Source: Marine Group II euryarchaeote MED-G36
GTDB lineage: Archaea; Thermoplasmatota; Poseidoniia; Poseidoniales; Thalassarchaeaceae
Length of the DNA stretch: 53,657 nt
NCBI GenBank assembly: GCA_002457595.1
Contig: NTJR01000001.1
Span: 1-53,657, forward strand
Direction: 5' to 3'
In this document: piece by piece, positions 3 through 13,561 of the stretch
Layout of the letters: every line of letters begins with the position of its first letter
How positions within the stretch are numbered: the first letter of the stretch is position 1
Translations under genes and position numbers: made by a program
Notes under the pieces: generated by a model
The model's database searches: none
What the model saw: the letters and a program-made list of their open reading frames with translations, nothing else
Told to the model about the DNA's origin: nothing

Positions 3-1229
3 GAATCCTTTGGAGCAACTAATTGGCAAGACGGAACTGCATTCAATTTCCGTTTCAATACAACATATCTTGCAGGAAACTACACTGTCACATTGAGAGT
101 TACCGACAATGGTGGTCTAATTAGTGAGGAATCCATCAATGTTGAGTTGTATGATTCATCTCCTCCTCTCGTCATCGAGAAAATCCACGAAATTTCAGTT
201 AGTTCCGGAACTCCCTACGAGTTTATTGCCGATGCTACTGATTCTGAATCAATTAATCTTCAATATTCTTGGGATTTTGATATTGACTCGGATGGGATAG
301 ATGAAGATGGCGATACGAGTAATGATGTTGATGCAACGGGTAATCCGGTATCATTCACATTTGAAAACAGTGGGTCATTTGAGGTTGTTTGCACCATTAC
401 AAATGATGCGGGGATTCCATCTCAAATTACATATTTCGTATCTGTAAAAGATTCTACTAATGATAATAGCATATTTGGTATGAATCCATATTTGTTGGTA
501 GGATTGATAATACTGATTGTCATATTCATTGTCGCCTTGGTTGGTCTAATTTCATGGCGAAGAATGACGAATGAACGCCTTAAGTTACTTCTAGCCGAGC
601 AAGAAGCTGCTGACGAAGAAAAACCGAGAGAGTTGACTATTGAGGAACAGAAAGCAATGTATGGTGGCAATTCAGCCTTCAATCAACCCGCTCCAACCCC
701 CTCTGCATCCTCTTTTGGGCAATTCGCATCGGGGATGTCGGGTAGTCCAAATCCAGTTGATTCAATTTCTATTGATGATGCGATAGATGAAGTTGATATT
801 GAAGCCCTCATTAATTCTCCAACTCCAATCGAATCGACTAAGGTTTCTAGTCCAGCAGCAGATTTACTGGCCCAATTTTCTACAGATGAAGACGAGGTCG
901 TTGAGGATGATGTAGTTGAGTTTTCTCATAATAGTGACAATCATGATTCGGAGGAGATGTGGAACTCAGATGTGTCCGAATTCGAAGAAGAAGAACTTCC
1001 AGTTCCACCACCTCCTACTATAGATGAACCTGAAGATGACAATCTAGAAGAAGACAAAAACTTGGATAAAGAAGCAGAGGACTCTTCTGAATTTCAAGAC
1101 GATAGAACAGTTCAACAAGACTGTAGTGATTGTGAACAGAGATTTGAGATTATTCTCCCAGAAGGTCATGATGTTGTAAGAGCCGCTTGTCCTTCATGTG
1201 GCTCCATTCAAACGGTAAAATTAGAATGA
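3..1229 (+). CDS. PKD-domain surface protein with cytoplasmic zinc ribbon (5'-truncated)
   Basis: The reading frame is open to the left edge, so the N-terminus lies outside the window; 408 residues are visible. The outer part is beta-rich, with a PKD-like domain (YSWDFDIDSDG at about 270-300, followed by the typical FENSGSFEV turn). One membrane span (MNPYLLVGLIILIVIF, from position 480) is followed by RR, so the long acidic tail is probably cytoplasmic. The tail ends in two CxxC pairs (CSDC near 1122 and CPSC near 1186), which form a zinc-ribbon-like module. PKD domains usually mediate adhesion or protein contact outside the cell. The ligand is unknown. It is the first of five collinear surface-protein genes. 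A TTG at 93 is an internal codon, not the start. Confidence 0.75.
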   Translation, partial: ESFGATNWQDGTAFNFRFNTTYLAGNYTVTLRVTDNGGLISEESINVELYDSSPPLVIEKIHEISVSSGTPYEFIADATDSESINLQYSWDFDIDSDGIDEDGDTSNDVDATGNPVSFTFENSGSFEVVCTITNDAGIPSQITYFVSVKDSTNDNSIFGMNPYLLVGLIILIVIFIVALVGLISWRRMTNERLKLLLAEQEAADEEKPRELTIEEQKAMYGGNSAFNQPAPTPSASSFGQFASGMSGSPNPVDSISIDDAIDEVDIEALINSPTPIESTKVSSPAADLLAQFSTDEDEVVEDDVVEFSHNSDNHDSEEMWNSDVSEFEEEELPVPPPPTIDEPEDDNLEEDKNLDKEAEDSSEFQDDRTVQQDCSDCEQRFEIILPEGHDVVRAACPSCGSIQTVKLE

Positions 1230-5679: not shown

Positions 5680-6240
5680 ATGGGTTTACTTGAGAAGATT
5701 AAAAATGCAAAAGGCGAAGATTCTCCTGAAGCCACTGAAAAGGCGCATGAAATCTTACAAATCGTCGGAGAAAGGGTGGAAATCATTCGCCCTACTCGTG
5801 TGATTTTTGCTTCGATTTCTGTTTTATTGATTCTCAGTGCTGTTTTTATTGTCAGTACATGGCTTGTTCCATATGACAGAACCTCAGTAGATGTTGTTTA
5901 CATTCAAGGTGGCTCAGGACATGTAGTTCTAGTTGAGTTGAACAATAAAGGTTCACGATCAATTGAGGATATTACCATGGATATTCGATTTTTGGATGAT
6001 TTAGGGGTGGAAATTGCTCGAACAAGTTTTGTTTCTGAAGAGATTCCAGCACATACTTCAGTAGCGGGAGATGAATTGGAATTACTAATTAGCGGCGAGT
6101 CAGTTTGGGAGAATTATACTATCGAAATTTCTCTTGATTATACCTATGGTGGTGATTCCTATCATGAGAGATTTACACATGAAGTCGGTCAATGGGCTAG
6201 AGAGATGTTCACCGATAAGGCTCCTATTCGATTTTTCTAA
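5680..6240 (+). CDS. Small single-span membrane protein, unknown family
   Basis: The protein has 186 residues. The start is the ATG at 5680, preceded by GGAGGTGAC at 5667-5675; upstream in-frame codons lie inside the previous gene and have no ribosome binding site. The first 45 residues are charged and probably cytoplasmic (KIKNAKGEDSPEATEKAHEI). One membrane span follows (VIFASISVLLILSAVFIVSTWLV), then an outer domain of about 120 residues that looks like an immunoglobulin-like beta sandwich (VELNNKGSRSIEDITMDIRFLDD). The topology is inferred from charge. It is translationally linked to the 1453-residue secreted protein upstream, so the two products may act as a pair. No function can be named. 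Confidence 0.75.
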   Translation: MGLLEKIKNAKGEDSPEATEKAHEILQIVGERVEIIRPTRVIFASISVLLILSAVFIVSTWLVPYDRTSVDVVYIQGGSGHVVLVELNNKGSRSIEDITMDIRFLDDLGVEIARTSFVSEEIPAHTSVAGDELELLISGESVWENYTIEISLDYTYGGDSYHERFTHEVGQWAREMFTDKAPIRFF

Positions 6241-6273: not shown

Positions 6274-9200
6274 TTGACCCGAATACTGAAAGGTAGAGTA
6301 TTTCGGGGTCGTTCTATGTCTCAGCGAGCCTCGCTGTTAGTTCTAACAATCCTTCTTCTTGGAATGGCTCCAATTAGTGGAACAATGATTGATGAATCAT
6401 CGACATCAGAATTACCTCTAGATAATACAACTCAGAGAATTGAAATCTCAGCCAACCCAGATTCAATCAGAGATCTTGGTGAATCAAATGTTATCGAAGG
6501 ATTTGAGAGAACTCGTAGTAATACCGCTGAATCCTCTATCGGCGTATATACTGAGATTGGATTTATTCCTTCCGTTCATATTCCTAGTTCATTGACAGTA
6601 AATCGTGCGGATTTAGTGATTGTAATAGTAAATGGTGAAGTTGGAATTTGGGATGCTAGGATTTCAATAGAAGAATCAGCCAATGTCGAAATTAGAACTA
6701 CAATCCCTCCGTCAGGTTTCCTCGTTCAGGGTGATCAGAAAGAGATTTCTAAGTTAGCTGAAATCGATGTAATTGAAGCAGTTCATAATGTTCCCATAGG
6801 ACTTCTTGTTGATCCGATTTTGAGAGTCGTTGATGAAGGCAAAATCATGGTTGAGATTCTGGGTTGGAAGGATGATGAGTTGCAAAGGCATTCAGAACCA
6901 GGTCTAGGTATTGATGCTTCTTTGGATGAAGTCTCAAAAGAATGGATGACCGATTCCTGGAGTCCCGAAGAGGGTCGATTATGGGGCGAAATTAACCTTG
7001 CTGATTTAGGAAAAATTTCTCAACATCCTTCTGTTTCTTGGATTTCTCCTCTGCCTGTGCTTGAACTTCACAATGATAATGCAAGAAACTGGATGGGAAT
7101 AAATTCTGTTGATTCTTACTTTGTTACGGATTTAGATGGCTCTGGACAGACAATAGCAGTTGGTGATTCTGGAATAGATCATGATCATGGCGACTTTGGT
7201 AACAGAATAGTTGCTAGAACATCAGTCACTCCTGGTGATTCGAGTACGGCCGACCCTAGTGATGGACATGGTACCCATGTTGCCTGCACTGTTTTGGGTT
7301 CCGGAATGCGTAGCAGTGGCACATATGCTGGAGTTGCTCCGGCTGCTAGTCTATACTTTCAAGCGATGGAAGACGATGACACAAATTCATTGTATAGTTA
7401 TGGAATAAATAGCATGCTTAATTCTGCTTACAACGATGGCGCACGATTACACACAAATAGTTGGGGCTCTGCAAGTGGACATGGTTCCTACTCAACTCAG
7501 TCAGAAGATGCTGATGATCGTACATCTACTTGGGATCAGTACTGGTCTTACGACGGGATGACAGTCCTTTTTGCCGCCGGTAATGATCGATATACAGGTG
7601 TAACGCCTCCTGCAACAGCCAAGAATGTAATTACCATTGGAGGCCATGATAATCGAGGCAGTGGTTCTCCTGATAGTATGTATTATTCCAGCAGTAGAGG
7701 ACCTACTGATGATGGGCGTATCAAACCCGACCTAGTTGCTCCTGGAGATGGCGTTCGCTCCTGCCTCGCTCAAGAGGCTCAGGACACTGATTCAGGGTGG
7801 TCAAACGACTGGTACCTTGAGTACAGCGGCACTTCCATGGCGACTCCAGCCGCAGCAGGCGCTGCAACTTTAGTACGAGAATATCTGATGGAAGTTGCAA
7901 ATAGGCCTGCTCCTCAAGGTGCTCTAATCAAGGCTCTGCTTATTCTTGGAGCCGAGGATATGGGAACTCGAAACATTCCTAATGATGACGAAGGATGGGG
8001 TCGTGTAAATCTGATAAATTCATTAATTCCGGATAGTGACGAAGGGATTTTCGTAGATGATAGAAATAGAATCAAGAGCGGTCAAACACGTGAATATAAT
8101 TTCGATATTACTAGGTCAGGGGAACCGCTGAAAGTGGTTCTAGCGTGGTCGGATTTCCCCGGCTCGTCTCAATCTAACGCTCAACTTAGAAATGATTTGA
8201 ATTTAGAAGTCACTAATCCTAATGGAAATATGGTCTACAAAGGAAATGTTTTCACTTCAGGTCATTCAATTACCGGGGGTAATTGGGATGATGTAAACAA
8301 CGTCGAAGTGGTTTTGGTTGACTCAGCCTCGACCGGCACATGGACAGTCAGTGTCAAGGATGATTATCATGGAGGCGGCCGAACGTGGCAACCATACTCA
8401 ATAGCCGTTAGAGGGGTAAATGTCAATGATTTGTCGCCGGATCCAACTTTCTCATCAGAAGTTATCATTGATCCTATCGTTCCACAAGTTGGAGAAAATG
8501 TTGAGATTACCGTTACTGTTGAAAATTTAGGAGCGGGGTCAATCCCTGATCTTGATGTAATGGCTAGAGCTGATGGTTCACTAATCTCAAATCAGGTTAT
8601 TTCGTTAATTCCTGGCGAATCAAAGCAAGTTACATGGAATTGGACACCTACACAGGAGGGACAAATTCCACTAGAATTTAGAGTCGACCCAAATGACTTA
8701 GTCGAGGAGACATCTGAATCAAACAATCTTCTAACTCATATGTTACAAGTCAGTGCTCCCGGTGTTAGAGTCAGCTCAAGTGAGGCCTATATTTCTCTTA
8801 GCGATGCTACAGATTCAGTTACTTCATGGGATCTCCAACTAACTAATACAGCACTTTTCGAGACAAATGCTACTATAGAAGCCAGCAATGTAATACGAAT
8901 GAGTGATGGATTAGAATTTGATTGGTTTAAATCCTTCACGAATACAGAATTTAATCTCGCTGCAGCAGAAACTATAGACATTGGATTCACTTTAATTCAT
9001 CCCGCTCCTCCACAACCTGGAACATATCAAATTATGATTACTGGAACGGACATAGAAAACTCTGTTGAATCTATTTTGTCTATTTTCTTTGTTGTGCCAC
9101 TTCTTGCTGAAGCCGATGTCCAAATTAGTGCAGGACAAATTCTTGTCAGCCCATTAGAGAAAACGAATGTTCAATTTTTCGTCACAAATCTTGGTAATGG

Positions 9201-10809
9201 TCCCCAGACATATGATGTTGAATTGATTTCCCCTGCCGGTTGGAATCTTGGTTTAGATTACCTTGGAACTTTTGCTGGCTCTTCTCATGGATCAACAGGA
9301 ACCCTAAGTGTGGGGGAGCAAAGAGCAATCGATGTTACAATAAATCCCCCTGGGGCATTGATTCCCGAGGGTACAATCCTTGATGCAGCAATAAATATTC
9401 GATCAAGAGTCAGTAATGATGTTTGGTCAGTTGATATTCCAATGAGGGTAATTGCAATAGATCAGTTATCGACCACCCCTATCAGTGATGGAATAGAGCA
9501 TCAAGTACCTCCGGATGGAACAATTGAGTTGAAAATAGATTTCCTTAATTTAGGAAACCGCGAATTACAACTTACACCAATTCAACTGGGAATTCCTGGC
9601 GGGTGGACTGTTTTGGAACCGCTTCAGCCTCTAACTCTACCAACGTCTTCTACAACTCAGTGGAGTGTTACTCTACAGGGTAATGGTCTAGCAGAAAGTG
9701 GATTATTTCAACTTCGCTTCACAACAGCTGATGGTGAATTCTATATTGATTGGAATAGGAGTATAGATGTACTTTCAGCTGCTATTCCGATAATTAACTT
9801 CTATCAAGTATCTTTAGCTACTGGTGAAACATCTGATTCTGTACTAGGATTAGGTCAACATCCAGTGGGAGAGCCATTTGATATTTCTTGGATCGTTGAG
9901 AACCAAGGTGCATCAAATTGGAGAGATATAGACACTGAAATTATTCTACCAAATGATGATTGGATTGGAGATTGCGGTTCTCCACCTAGCACAGTTTATT
10001 CTGACTCTAATTATATAATTTGGTGCACGATGACAATCCCTCTATCTGCTGAAGCTGAAACCGGTTATCCTGTGACTTTCCGTATGAGTGGTGAGGGAAT
10101 TTCTATTGAGAATGTCATCAGCCTCCACCCCGCATCAAAATCAGCAGTTTCTTGGGATGTGAATTCTAATGTAAGTGCTCATGAAGGTTGGTCCGAACAA
10201 CTAACAGTTACAGTGCAAAACATAGGTAATGCACCAATAAGTCACAGGCTTGAAGTAACAGCTCCTGCCGGTTGGGATTTATTAATCAATGATGCAGTTC
10301 TGATTCTCCTCCAACCTGATGAATCGACTAATATTAATATTCAATTCAAACCGAATTCAGGTGATGATGGAGTCCTCTCATTTTCGTTGAAAAATGCAGA
10401 CGACATAGATGGTTCAGTTTTCAATGTTGATGTTGATGTTAAGGCGGCAAGAGTAGGTGAAGATTCATCATCTTCAATTTTTATTCCTTTCATCATTATC
10501 CTAGTTATAGTTGCTCTTGGCGGAACAGCATTCTTTGTATCCAGAAAAAGAGGAATTGATATCAGTCAGATTTTTGCTAGTGAAAACCTTTCAAAGATTA
10601 GTGATTCTCTAAATTTAAGTGATTCAACCAGTGGTTCTGGAATAGAATGTTGGGTTTGTAGTAAGGATATTATTGTCGGCCAAGCCTTGGCTTGTGGTCA
10701 GTGTGGAGCTCGCTATCATAGAGCATCCCAAGTGAGTGGTTGTGACATAATTTCTCTGGGCCGTTGTTTGCATTGTAATGCCAAATCCGCTGAGTTAGTA
10801 GAGGCCTAA
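6274..10809 (+). CDS. Surface subtilisin (S8) with CARDB-like repeats, membrane anchor and cytoplasmic RING-like finger
   Basis: The protein has 1511 residues. The S8 catalytic triad is visible: Asp298 in GDSGIDHDHGD, His332 in DGHGTHVA and Ser521 in SGTSMATPAAAG, with the oxyanion Asn in AAGND. Residues 1-280 are the signal peptide and propeptide region. After the protease comes a beta-sandwich of the type associated with S8 enzymes, then a CARDB-like domain (VENLGAGSIPDLDV) and several NEW3-like repeats. A membrane span at about 1404-1427 (FIPFIIILVIVALGGTAFF) ends in RKR. The cytoplasmic tail carries CWVC, CGQC, YH, GC and CLHC (from residue 1459), a RING-like zinc pattern. It probably degrades external protein. 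The start is either TTG 6274, after AGAGGT, or ATG 6316. Confidence 0.88.
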   Translation: MTRILKGRVFRGRSMSQRASLLVLTILLLGMAPISGTMIDESSTSELPLDNTTQRIEISANPDSIRDLGESNVIEGFERTRSNTAESSIGVYTEIGFIPSVHIPSSLTVNRADLVIVIVNGEVGIWDARISIEESANVEIRTTIPPSGFLVQGDQKEISKLAEIDVIEAVHNVPIGLLVDPILRVVDEGKIMVEILGWKDDELQRHSEPGLGIDASLDEVSKEWMTDSWSPEEGRLWGEINLADLGKISQHPSVSWISPLPVLELHNDNARNWMGINSVDSYFVTDLDGSGQTIAVGDSGIDHDHGDFGNRIVARTSVTPGDSSTADPSDGHGTHVACTVLGSGMRSSGTYAGVAPAASLYFQAMEDDDTNSLYSYGINSMLNSAYNDGARLHTNSWGSASGHGSYSTQSEDADDRTSTWDQYWSYDGMTVLFAAGNDRYTGVTPPATAKNVITIGGHDNRGSGSPDSMYYSSSRGPTDDGRIKPDLVAPGDGVRSCLAQEAQDTDSGWSNDWYLEYSGTSMATPAAAGAATLVREYLMEVANRPAPQGALIKALLILGAEDMGTRNIPNDDEGWGRVNLINSLIPDSDEGIFVDDRNRIKSGQTREYNFDITRSGEPLKVVLAWSDFPGSSQSNAQLRNDLNLEVTNPNGNMVYKGNVFTSGHSITGGNWDDVNNVEVVLVDSASTGTWTVSVKDDYHGGGRTWQPYSIAVRGVNVNDLSPDPTFSSEVIIDPIVPQVGENVEITVTVENLGAGSIPDLDVMARADGSLISNQVISLIPGESKQVTWNWTPTQEGQIPLEFRVDPNDLVEETSESNNLLTHMLQVSAPGVRVSSSEAYISLSDATDSVTSWDLQLTNTALFETNATIEASNVIRMSDGLEFDWFKSFTNTEFNLAAAETIDIGFTLIHPAPPQPGTYQIMITGTDIENSVESILSIFFVVPLLAEADVQISAGQILVSPLEKTNVQFFVTNLGNGPQTYDVELISPAGWNLGLDYLGTFAGSSHGSTGTLSVGEQRAIDVTINPPGALIPEGTILDAAINIRSRVSNDVWSVDIPMRVIAIDQLSTTPISDGIEHQVPPDGTIELKIDFLNLGNRELQLTPIQLGIPGGWTVLEPLQPLTLPTSSTTQWSVTLQGNGLAESGLFQLRFTTADGEFYIDWNRSIDVLSAAIPIINFYQVSLATGETSDSVLGLGQHPVGEPFDISWIVENQGASNWRDIDTEIILPNDDWIGDCGSPPSTVYSDSNYIIWCTMTIPLSAEAETGYPVTFRMSGEGISIENVISLHPASKSAVSWDVNSNVSAHEGWSEQLTVTVQNIGNAPISHRLEVTAPAGWDLLINDAVLILLQPDESTNINIQFKPNSGDDGVLSFSLKNADDIDGSVFNVDVDVKAARVGEDSSSSIFIPFIIILVIVALGGTAFFVSRKRGIDISQIFASENLSKISDSLNLSDSTSGSGIECWVCSKDIIVGQALACGQCGARYHRASQVSGCDIISLGRCLHCNAKSAELVEA

Positions 10810-10873: not shown

Positions 10874-13561
10874 ATGAATCACGTATCATCGGCTCGGATT
10901 CTATCCGTTCTTCTGGTATTTTCATTACTTTCTCCTATTTCTTTAGCGGAAATTGATCCAAGACTTACCGCTTCTCCAATGGCCCAGGAAGCAGATGTGG
11001 ACGATGCTGCTGAATATGACATCACAGTTCACAATGACGGCGACGATGATATGACTGTCACCCTTACAACTCAGCAAGATGCTAGTAATTGTAATGGTTT
11101 TACTTCTAATATAGAGCAAGTTTCTGGGAGTATAGATGCGGGCTCTTCTGAAACAGTTACGCTCACAGTTACTGTGACTGATCAGGCTGATGGAGATTGT
11201 GAGACCACTGTCAATGCTCAGGCTACACCTTCAGGGGCACCAGGGACTCCAAAGAATGCGGATATCACAGTCACAACCACATCAGGTGATGGAGGTGGCC
11301 TTTATGCAGTGAAACTCACAACTGATGAATTGACAATTGAATATGATGGTCAGAATCAGATAGAGTGGGATGTTGAAGTAGAAAATACTGGCGAGCAAGA
11401 TAATGCACAGATCCAACTTGAAATGACTTCCGACAGCGATTGTGAGTCTGATGAATTAACTGCCGAAGTTCAACCACCTACAGTTACTCTAAATTCGGGT
11501 GACAAAGAAACAGTTGAGGTCACTGTAGATGTGCCTGATGGCAGTTCTACAGAAGCAGGTCAGCACTGTTTCATCATTCTAGCCACAGTAACAAATGACC
11601 CTAATGCTGCTGATCGAGCGTCAGATAATCTTACTCTTCAACTTGATATTCCTGAAGTCAAAGAGTGTGATGGACAACTCTCAACCTCTTCACATAATCT
11701 TGACCCATTTGAATCTGCAACCAATAGTTTCACTGTAGAGAATGTGGGTAATACAGAATGGACAGTGACTATGCAGGCTACATCTGCAGATATTGACATT
11801 AGCGACTGGGTGGATTTTGATAGTCCGAAATCAAAATTACTCTCTGAAACAGGTTCTGAATCTATTCATACTTTTTCTTTCACAACCACACCTGATGATT
11901 CAGCAGAGGCCGATTCTCAGATTGAAATTATGATTCAGGGAATGTCAAACCAGGGAGTTGGTTGTGAGAGAATGCTCGTAATTAGGATAGGGCAGGTCCA
12001 CGAAGCAGAATTATCACTCAGCACAACGGTCTTGTCAAATGTTCAACCTGGTGACTCCGGTACAGTTAGTATCACCATAGAAAATATTGGAAATGGTGCC
12101 GACACATTCTCTCTAACGACTATAGAGATACCTGATGGCTGGCAATCCCAATTTTCATTTTCTTCTGTTACAGTTCAAAGTAAACACAGCTCAGACAATG
12201 AAGAATCAGTAAGTGCGACAATTAATGTTCCACCCGATGCTCTAGCAGGGGACAACCTAGTTACTTTTGGAGTTACAATTAGTGGCTCAACTACGATTCT
12301 TTCAAGTAAAACTCTGACTGTTTCAGTAGCTCCTAATCATGAAATGACTGCAGTCATGACGTCTACTGAACAGAGTGGTTCGACAGGACAGATTGTTCAA
12401 TTTCCTCTTGAAATTACTAATACAGGAAATGTGCAGGATACCTTCATACTGAAAGTCTGTGATCCTAATGATCTGACTGGCTGTAATCCTCCTGAATGGT
12501 CTTCTTCATATTCCGATTCTAGTGGGAATTCTATTTCCCAGATTGTCATTAATTCAGGTGAATCAAAGTCAATATTTCTTGATGTTACAGTCGGTGATGG
12601 GAGAAATGGATATCCGGTCGAAATCTTGTCTCGAGTTAGTATCTATGGAACTGAAGAAAAAATTGAACAGACTGTCAAGGTAATTATTTCTAACTACGTA
12701 TATGGAATGGCAATCTCTCTAGAAGAGCCGGGCTCAAGTGCTAGTGAATTAGATGTCACTCTTCCTCCAGGAGGAGTCACTCAAATTAATTTCTGGGTTG
12801 AGAATGTTGGAAACCATTCCGTAGATGGTGCAGTAATTTCGGTCACAGGTTTGGAATCATCAGTTCTTAGAAAGGTGCTAGTAGATGGAATCGCTATTTC
12901 TGAAAACATTCAAATTCAATTGGGTGAAAGAAAACTAATTACCGTTGAATTGGAGGTTATTGAGGGTCTTAATAGTGGAACTACGGGGATCATTCAGGTA
13001 AGTGCTGCATCTGAGAAAAATGCAGCACAACCGACTTTTGTTAGTCTAATATTTGAGTCAAAGACAATACATAATCTAGTTCTTACCTTAGAAGGTGAAG
13101 ATTCGAAAAAGACCGATGAATCATCTAGCATTGAGTTCATGATTCATGTGACAAATAATGGTAATGTCCTTGAAGAAGTCCAAGTTTTGAGTAGTGACCC
13201 ACTTAGAGGATGGGGTGTGAATATGGTCCCCGAAGAATTTGATTTATCTCCAGGCGAATCAAAAAATGTCACCATTAGAGTGATTCCTCCTGCGGATATG
13301 GTTCAGGATGACACCTACAAATTCACCATAACAGTTCAGCCAAGAGGAATGCCAGTTGCTGGCCAACCTGTTGATTTAGAAGTCACGGCTGAAGTCAGTA
13401 CAGGCCTCGATCTAATCAGTGAAGAAAATAGGAAAATTCTAACATATGGGTTAACAATTATTGGTGGCCTTCTAGTTATGTTTTTGTTTGTTAATGCCCG
13501 TTCCGAAAATAAACGAATAATTAGTGTTCTAGATTCCGAATCAGGAAAAAATGATGATTAG
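10874..13561 (+). CDS. Membrane-anchored surface protein of repeated CARDB/NEW3-like domains
   Basis: The protein has 895 residues. It has a signal peptide (SARILSVLLVFSLLSPISLAE) and then at least five immunoglobulin-like repeats. They show the recurring phrase of the COG1470/NEW3 type: VENTGEQDNA, VENVGNTEWTV, IENIGNGADTF, ITNTGNVQDTF, VENVGNHSVDG and VTNNGNVLEEV, each about 100-130 residues apart. Near the C-terminus there is one span (ILTYGLTIIGGLLVMFLFV) and a short basic and acidic tail. There are no catalytic motifs. Such proteins usually build cell-surface layers or act as adhesion and spacer modules. The same repeats occur in the protease upstream, so the two probably work at the same surface. 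The ATG at 10874 has no clear ribosome binding site. Confidence 0.8.
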   Translation: MNHVSSARILSVLLVFSLLSPISLAEIDPRLTASPMAQEADVDDAAEYDITVHNDGDDDMTVTLTTQQDASNCNGFTSNIEQVSGSIDAGSSETVTLTVTVTDQADGDCETTVNAQATPSGAPGTPKNADITVTTTSGDGGGLYAVKLTTDELTIEYDGQNQIEWDVEVENTGEQDNAQIQLEMTSDSDCESDELTAEVQPPTVTLNSGDKETVEVTVDVPDGSSTEAGQHCFIILATVTNDPNAADRASDNLTLQLDIPEVKECDGQLSTSSHNLDPFESATNSFTVENVGNTEWTVTMQATSADIDISDWVDFDSPKSKLLSETGSESIHTFSFTTTPDDSAEADSQIEIMIQGMSNQGVGCERMLVIRIGQVHEAELSLSTTVLSNVQPGDSGTVSITIENIGNGADTFSLTTIEIPDGWQSQFSFSSVTVQSKHSSDNEESVSATINVPPDALAGDNLVTFGVTISGSTTILSSKTLTVSVAPNHEMTAVMTSTEQSGSTGQIVQFPLEITNTGNVQDTFILKVCDPNDLTGCNPPEWSSSYSDSSGNSISQIVINSGESKSIFLDVTVGDGRNGYPVEILSRVSIYGTEEKIEQTVKVIISNYVYGMAISLEEPGSSASELDVTLPPGGVTQINFWVENVGNHSVDGAVISVTGLESSVLRKVLVDGIAISENIQIQLGERKLITVELEVIEGLNSGTTGIIQVSAASEKNAAQPTFVSLIFESKTIHNLVLTLEGEDSKKTDESSSIEFMIHVTNNGNVLEEVQVLSSDPLRGWGVNMVPEEFDLSPGESKNVTIRVIPPADMVQDDTYKFTITVQPRGMPVAGQPVDLEVTAEVSTGLDLISEENRKILTYGLTIIGGLLVMFLFVNARSENKRIISVLDSESGKNDD

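Follow-up and report, generated by a model that had tools for sequence, protein, structure and literature searches.

A surface-anchored subtilase of Poseidoniales with a RING-like zinc finger on its predicted cytosolic tail

Marine Group II (MGII) archaea, which are uncultured, rank among the most abundant archaea of the plankton. As far as the accessible text of a previous study goes, their genomes encode one to four extracellular S8 peptidases each, of which the subtilase described here is one (PMC6864105). The same accessible text contains nothing on the cytosolic tail or on how it is conserved and replaced. A full-text literature search of open-licence papers found no paper describing the tail of this subtilase. 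For RING fingers, protein-protein interaction has been named as a primary attribute (PMC4678705). The archaeal E3 srfp of Caldiarchaeum is known to need a hydrophobic contact residue, a Trp and a conserved Arg/Lys (PMC5654768). Here we consider it somewhat probable that the protein is a surface-anchored subtilase carrying a cytosolic RING-like docking module that is exchangeable and has no ubiquitin-type catalysis.

The window analysed is a stretch of 53,657 nucleotides from the Marine Group II euryarchaeote MED-G36 (GCA_002457595.1, contig NTJR01000001.1), a Thalassarchaeaceae-like (MGIIb) genome that is about 57% complete. Features are listed in Table 1. For the subtilase ORF, the ATG at 6316 is a likelier start than the upstream TTG at 6274, which would give 1511 aa. 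The protein matches peptidase S8 (PF00082) with E = 7e-44 and 150.6 bits against a cut-off of 21.8, and the triad motifs D284-SG, H318-GT and GTS507-MA (GTSMA at 505) place it in the S8 family. Further Pfam matches identify its repeat domains as CARDB (1e-21) and NEW3 (9e-8), and its N-terminus is of signal type. Since SRKRG stands directly after the span, the tail is predicted to be cytoplasmic by the positive-inside rule. A preliminary description had singled out positions 10,480 to 10,809, which cover span and tail, and had proposed a surface S8 protease with extracellular repeats and one span; the Pfam matches, the triad motifs and the span at residues 1388-1406 bear this out.

Table 1. 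Coordinates of the subtilase, its domains and the neighbouring genes in the window.
Feature	Position	Strand	Basis and remarks
PKD-domain surface protein (ORF1), one span, acidic linker, C-terminal zinc-ribbon tail	93..1229	+	The window may cut off its 5' end
Exported protein of no recognised family, 1453 aa	1317..5678	+	Signal-like N-terminus; synteny
Small membrane protein, 186 aa, one span near N-terminus	5680..6240	+	Synteny
S8 subtilase, exported, single-span	6316..10809	+	1497 aa from ATG 6316, stop 10809; Pfam S8, CARDB and NEW3 matches; order-wide syntenic orthologues
S8 catalytic domain	7138..8001	+	Triad D284, H318, S507
Single C-terminal transmembrane span	10477..10533	+	Hydropathy scan and sequence; residues 1388-1406
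RING-like binuclear zinc finger	10636..10806	+	Ligand codons 10648 to 10776; zinc binding predicted from sequence
Single-span surface protein, 895 aa, NEW3/CARDB-like Ig domains, short tail	10874..13561	+	Synteny

The subtilase gene is a member of an envelope gene cluster that is found throughout the order. The cluster order ORF1, 1453-aa protein, 186-aa protein, S8, NEW3/CARDB protein and nuoABCD is the same in both families, and the S8 genes compared in this study are therefore orthologues. The 1453-aa exported protein gave no Pfam or NCBIfam match, and no ubiquitin-system genes were recognised within the cluster. ORF1 keeps its zinc-ribbon tail in place in both families, even where the S8 protein of the same genome has no finger. 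A fixed envelope gene block beside complex I genes, together with a protease that may carry a docking finger, offers a concrete, expressible target.

The finger follows the pattern C-x2-C-x11-C-x2-C-x4-H-x7-C-x7-C-x2-C, with C1445, C1448, C1460, C1463, H1468, C1476, C1484 and C1487 as putative ligands, exactly as given in the preliminary description, and seven of the 11 Cys residues of the whole subtilase fall within the tail. Searches with a profile built from 22 diverse fingers placed a homologous finger in 225 of 293 Poseidoniales genomes, spanning both families and 17 of 22 genera, and in 31 of the 35 most complete genomes; when the subtilase finger alone was the query, 96 of the 148 genomes of the family gave a match. 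It usually occurs once per genome and nearly always ends an ORF of about 1500 aa. Loss of the Cys and His residues in orthologues would be the main argument against a finger, and they are kept. All eight ligands are invariant at 62 loci, which were collected by finger searches (some in duplicate) and aligned with no Cys pattern imposed. The A, G, A and R of AC..CGAR are invariant across the same loci, and the W after C1 and the Y before H nearly so. In one finger (L192, from f2 genomes) the His is exchanged for Cys, which is a conservative ligand change. Mean pN/pS within genus is 0.17 for the finger, 0.38 for the preceding linker and 0.27 for the membrane-adjacent ectodomain, values that are comparative only because synonymous sites are near saturation. 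Purifying selection is thus strongest on the finger, relative to the linker or the last part of the ectodomain. A chance arrangement of Cys and His is ruled out by the order-wide spread, the invariant ligands and the low pN/pS of the finger.

An expansion of the finger family within the genome was also considered and is ruled out, since there is usually one copy, on the S8 orthologue, and other carriers are rare. One of these (L068, genome G101) is a single-span surface protein in which several W-rich, WW-like repeats (YPEGSGxWW) precede this RING-like finger. A related RING/PHD-like finger of canonical spacing ends a 1354-aa ORF of genome G105 (L173), behind a hydrophobic span and a long linker. 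Secondary matches in ORFs of 430-460 aa (L069-L072) are double zinc ribbons and not the finger of the subtilase. In one g4 genome, a second S8 gene with a finger (L059, G016:C97) groups with g5 in the tree and is probably a contamination of the metagenome-assembled genome.

With a protease on the outer and a conserved module on the inner side of a single span, a regulatory or sensing device is conceivable, in which the finger would perceive zinc or the redox state of the cytosol, or a signalling protein, and act on the protease through the span, or signals would run the other way. Eight thiol and imidazole ligands could indeed respond to zinc or to an oxidant. However, the ligand set is a complete structural one with no conserved extra Cys, and no kinase or regulator was recognised in the cluster. 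The linker that joins span to finger varies both in length and in sequence, up to long Pro-rich or acidic stretches, and a transmission of conformational signals through it is unlikely for that reason. Taken together, we regard a sensing finger as quite improbable.

Judged by its sequence, the finger is RING-like and of the binuclear treble-clef type. The first match of the subtilase finger is Prok-RING_1 (PF14446; E 0.002, 18 bits, below the cut-off of 29.1), then C1, PHD and zinc ribbons. Likewise, 18 of 22 Poseidoniales fingers match PF14446 weakly, and no genome of Poseidoniales was over its cut-off among 19 searched. The C4HC3-like ligand order and the CGAxYH core are common to both, whereas the Poseidoniales fingers tested stay below the cut-off, mostly have H-x5-C to H-x7-C where H-x2-C would be canonical, and stand behind the span of a surface protease. 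The canonical spacing occurs in five of 77 distinct fingers and is seen in genus g15; the rest have H-x4-C to H-x7-C, with all eight ligands there. Several Thermoplasmatota proteins outside Poseidoniales have a clear PF14446 finger at their C-terminal end (KCTLCRGTILPGLDIVVCDNCGAVYHLPCAKRVGKCLKCG, 54.7 bits against the cut-off of 29.1), and most of the Thermoplasmatota fingers compared pass this cut-off. Among these other Thermoplasmatota, L133-L137 and L200-L205 are proteins of 1000-1600 aa that end in a clear Prok-RING_1 finger, with no predicted span in the portions read. In hhalign, the Poseidoniales finger aligned with the Thermoplasmatota fingers at 97% over 43 columns and all ligands, and a zinc-ribbon control reached 95% over 25 columns (the first half). 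As the control scored this high, the hhalign score is inflated by cysteines, and hhalign alone cannot tell treble clefs from zinc ribbons for these fingers.

Other two-site fingers were compared as well. The RING-variant finger of viral K3 has the C4HC3 order in common with the subtilase finger and gave a weak PDB sequence match (E=0.046). The spacing CxxC-x11-CxxC-x4-H fits PHD and C1 domains, with weak matches to both, including the C1 domain of ARHGEF2 (E=0.005), but these matches are below cut-offs, and the position of C6 and the spacing of the final CxxC differ. An AlphaFold model had a pLDDT of 70 overall and about 80 over the finger, and a trimmed construct was worse (63). The nearest PDB neighbours of the first model are RING E3 domains, at non-significant values (E 0.06-0.1, prob ~0.9), and the trimmed, poorer model is nearest to rubredoxin-type knuckles; Foldseek gave no significant match for these finger models of moderate confidence. 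Because of the weak Pfam matches, the score of the zinc-ribbon control and the moderate and inconsistent fold models, we use the label RING-like and not proven RING. The resemblance to prokaryotic RING fingers suggested in the preliminary description therefore holds for the ligand set, and it does not extend to the Pfam cut-offs or to a confident fold.

The same description had suggested a coupling of the protease to internal protein turnover, and it is tempting to ask whether the finger is a RING-type E3 that links extracellular proteolysis to internal ubiquitin-like (SAMP) tagging. The ligand order is near the RING-variant/PHD type, the first fold model was closest to RING E3s at the non-significant values given above, and the proposed look for ubiquitin-like genes found ThiF (E1-like) and ThiS/MoaD-like genes in all 15 genomes examined. 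Both families serve sulfur transfer too. The E2 part of the system was not detected: UQ_con gave no match in these 15 genomes, a weak result because the control genomes gave no match either. In RING E3s, the linchpin Arg/Lys stands directly after C8. None of the 77 distinct fingers has Arg/Lys there (the residue is D, G, Q, N, E or S), none has a Trp in the C6-C7 loop that would meet an E2, and the position before C2 varies (I/V/L in 51 of 77, otherwise S/A/G/H/Q). The Poseidoniales fingers thus differ from RING E3s such as srfp and K3 in features on which srfp depends (PMC5654768). Moreover, the conserved cluster has no recognised ubiquitin-system genes, and non-zinc tails stand in for the finger at the same locus. 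With the hallmarks missing and the finger replaceable by such tails, an E3 role is improbable, and one that couples the protease to SAMP tagging very much so. The preliminary description was right about the architecture and probably wrong in its functional suggestion.

The replacements are seen at the syntenic S8 locus itself. In genera g6 and g11 the orthologue ends in ...YPGWLWDPxxEEWVPDPE (W-tail), and in part of genus g3 it ends in a helical-looking ...SMQLQSTGWSASQSKAIIDLSK (LQxTGW tail). In a few f2 genomes the orthologue has no recognisable tail module. For two finger-less orthologues (L161, L162), no finger was found downstream in any frame, and a frameshift hiding it is ruled out by this reading. 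A tree of the S8 proteins was built after removal of the last 120 residues, i.e., most of the tail, and rooted on two distant paralogues. In this tree, the finger is present in both families, the W-tail is a single change (support 99%), the helical tail is a single change inside g3, and the finger losses are separate. The simplest reading is that the finger is ancestral, was replaced twice and was lost a few times; the alternative would be multiple gains. Such an exchange within a single orthologous locus amounts to a natural experiment on the role of the tail.

Replaceability could mean that the tail need only be something folded. The finger could also serve structure or biogenesis: as a zinc knob that folds quickly, it would fix the topology or shield the C-terminus, with no specific partner. 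Unrelated modules replace the finger, it is missing in the few orthologues named above, and the neighbouring ORF1 has a zinc ribbon at the equivalent place, all of which fits such a knob. However, the invariant non-ligand residues of AC..CGAR and the nearly invariant Trp6 speak against it, as do the replacement modules, which are themselves specific recurring families. We consider a knob of this kind unlikely, though less so than a sensing finger. Instead, we favour a docking role. The subtilase would be exported and membrane-anchored, and its finger may act as a two-zinc treble-clef docking module, linking the protease with a partner in the cytoplasm, potentially for positioning, complex assembly or anchoring. 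The finger would belong to an exchangeable set of small cytosolic C-terminal modules of Poseidoniales surface proteins, from which the subtilase may have taken the PGWLWD tail once and the LQxTGW helical tail once in its place. That it is replaced by knobs common to other surface proteins suggests that it is probably an internal docking tag and not a part of a ubiquitin system.

These other carriers were sought in G148, a near-complete genome (2.0 of 2.06 Mb read), where the search covered all 15,242 ORFs of 60 aa or more. By hydropathy, a crude measure that includes some artefacts, 90 candidate single-span surface proteins were counted, 70 of them with a cytosolic tail of 25-400 aa. The helical-tail profile had its sole significant match at the C-terminus of a 2125-aa FG-GAP-repeat surface protein (E=7e-14), and the W-tail profile likewise had a single match, to the C-terminus of a surface protein of 1492 aa with a beta-helix (E=4e-8). 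Matches to a GLPxGWTMEQWxxYG profile lie at the C-terminus, or close to it, in about ten proteins, one of which is a 1600-aa S8 paralogue. G148 thus uses a small set of recurring predicted cytosolic tails. The recurrence of these modules on unrelated surface proteins suggests that Poseidoniales surface proteins share and exchange small cytosolic end modules, which we find more interesting than the finger alone. It might be speculated, as a tentative idea to which we give slightly less than an even chance, that a genome-wide tail code exists, i.e., a limited vocabulary of C-terminal modules on single-span surface proteins that is read by intracellular adaptors and exchanged in evolution. Its modules would be the RING-like finger, zinc ribbons, PGWLWD, GLPxGWTxEQW, YPxGSGxWYYR and the LQxTGW helical tail. 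The logic would be comparable to that of eukaryotic receptor tails and, if true, would represent a new principle of archaeal cell-surface organisation. In G148, the one GLPxGWTMEQWxxYGxxWL tail that was scanned had no Pfam match, and the proteins with this motif (within L230-L329) are mostly large and of surface type.
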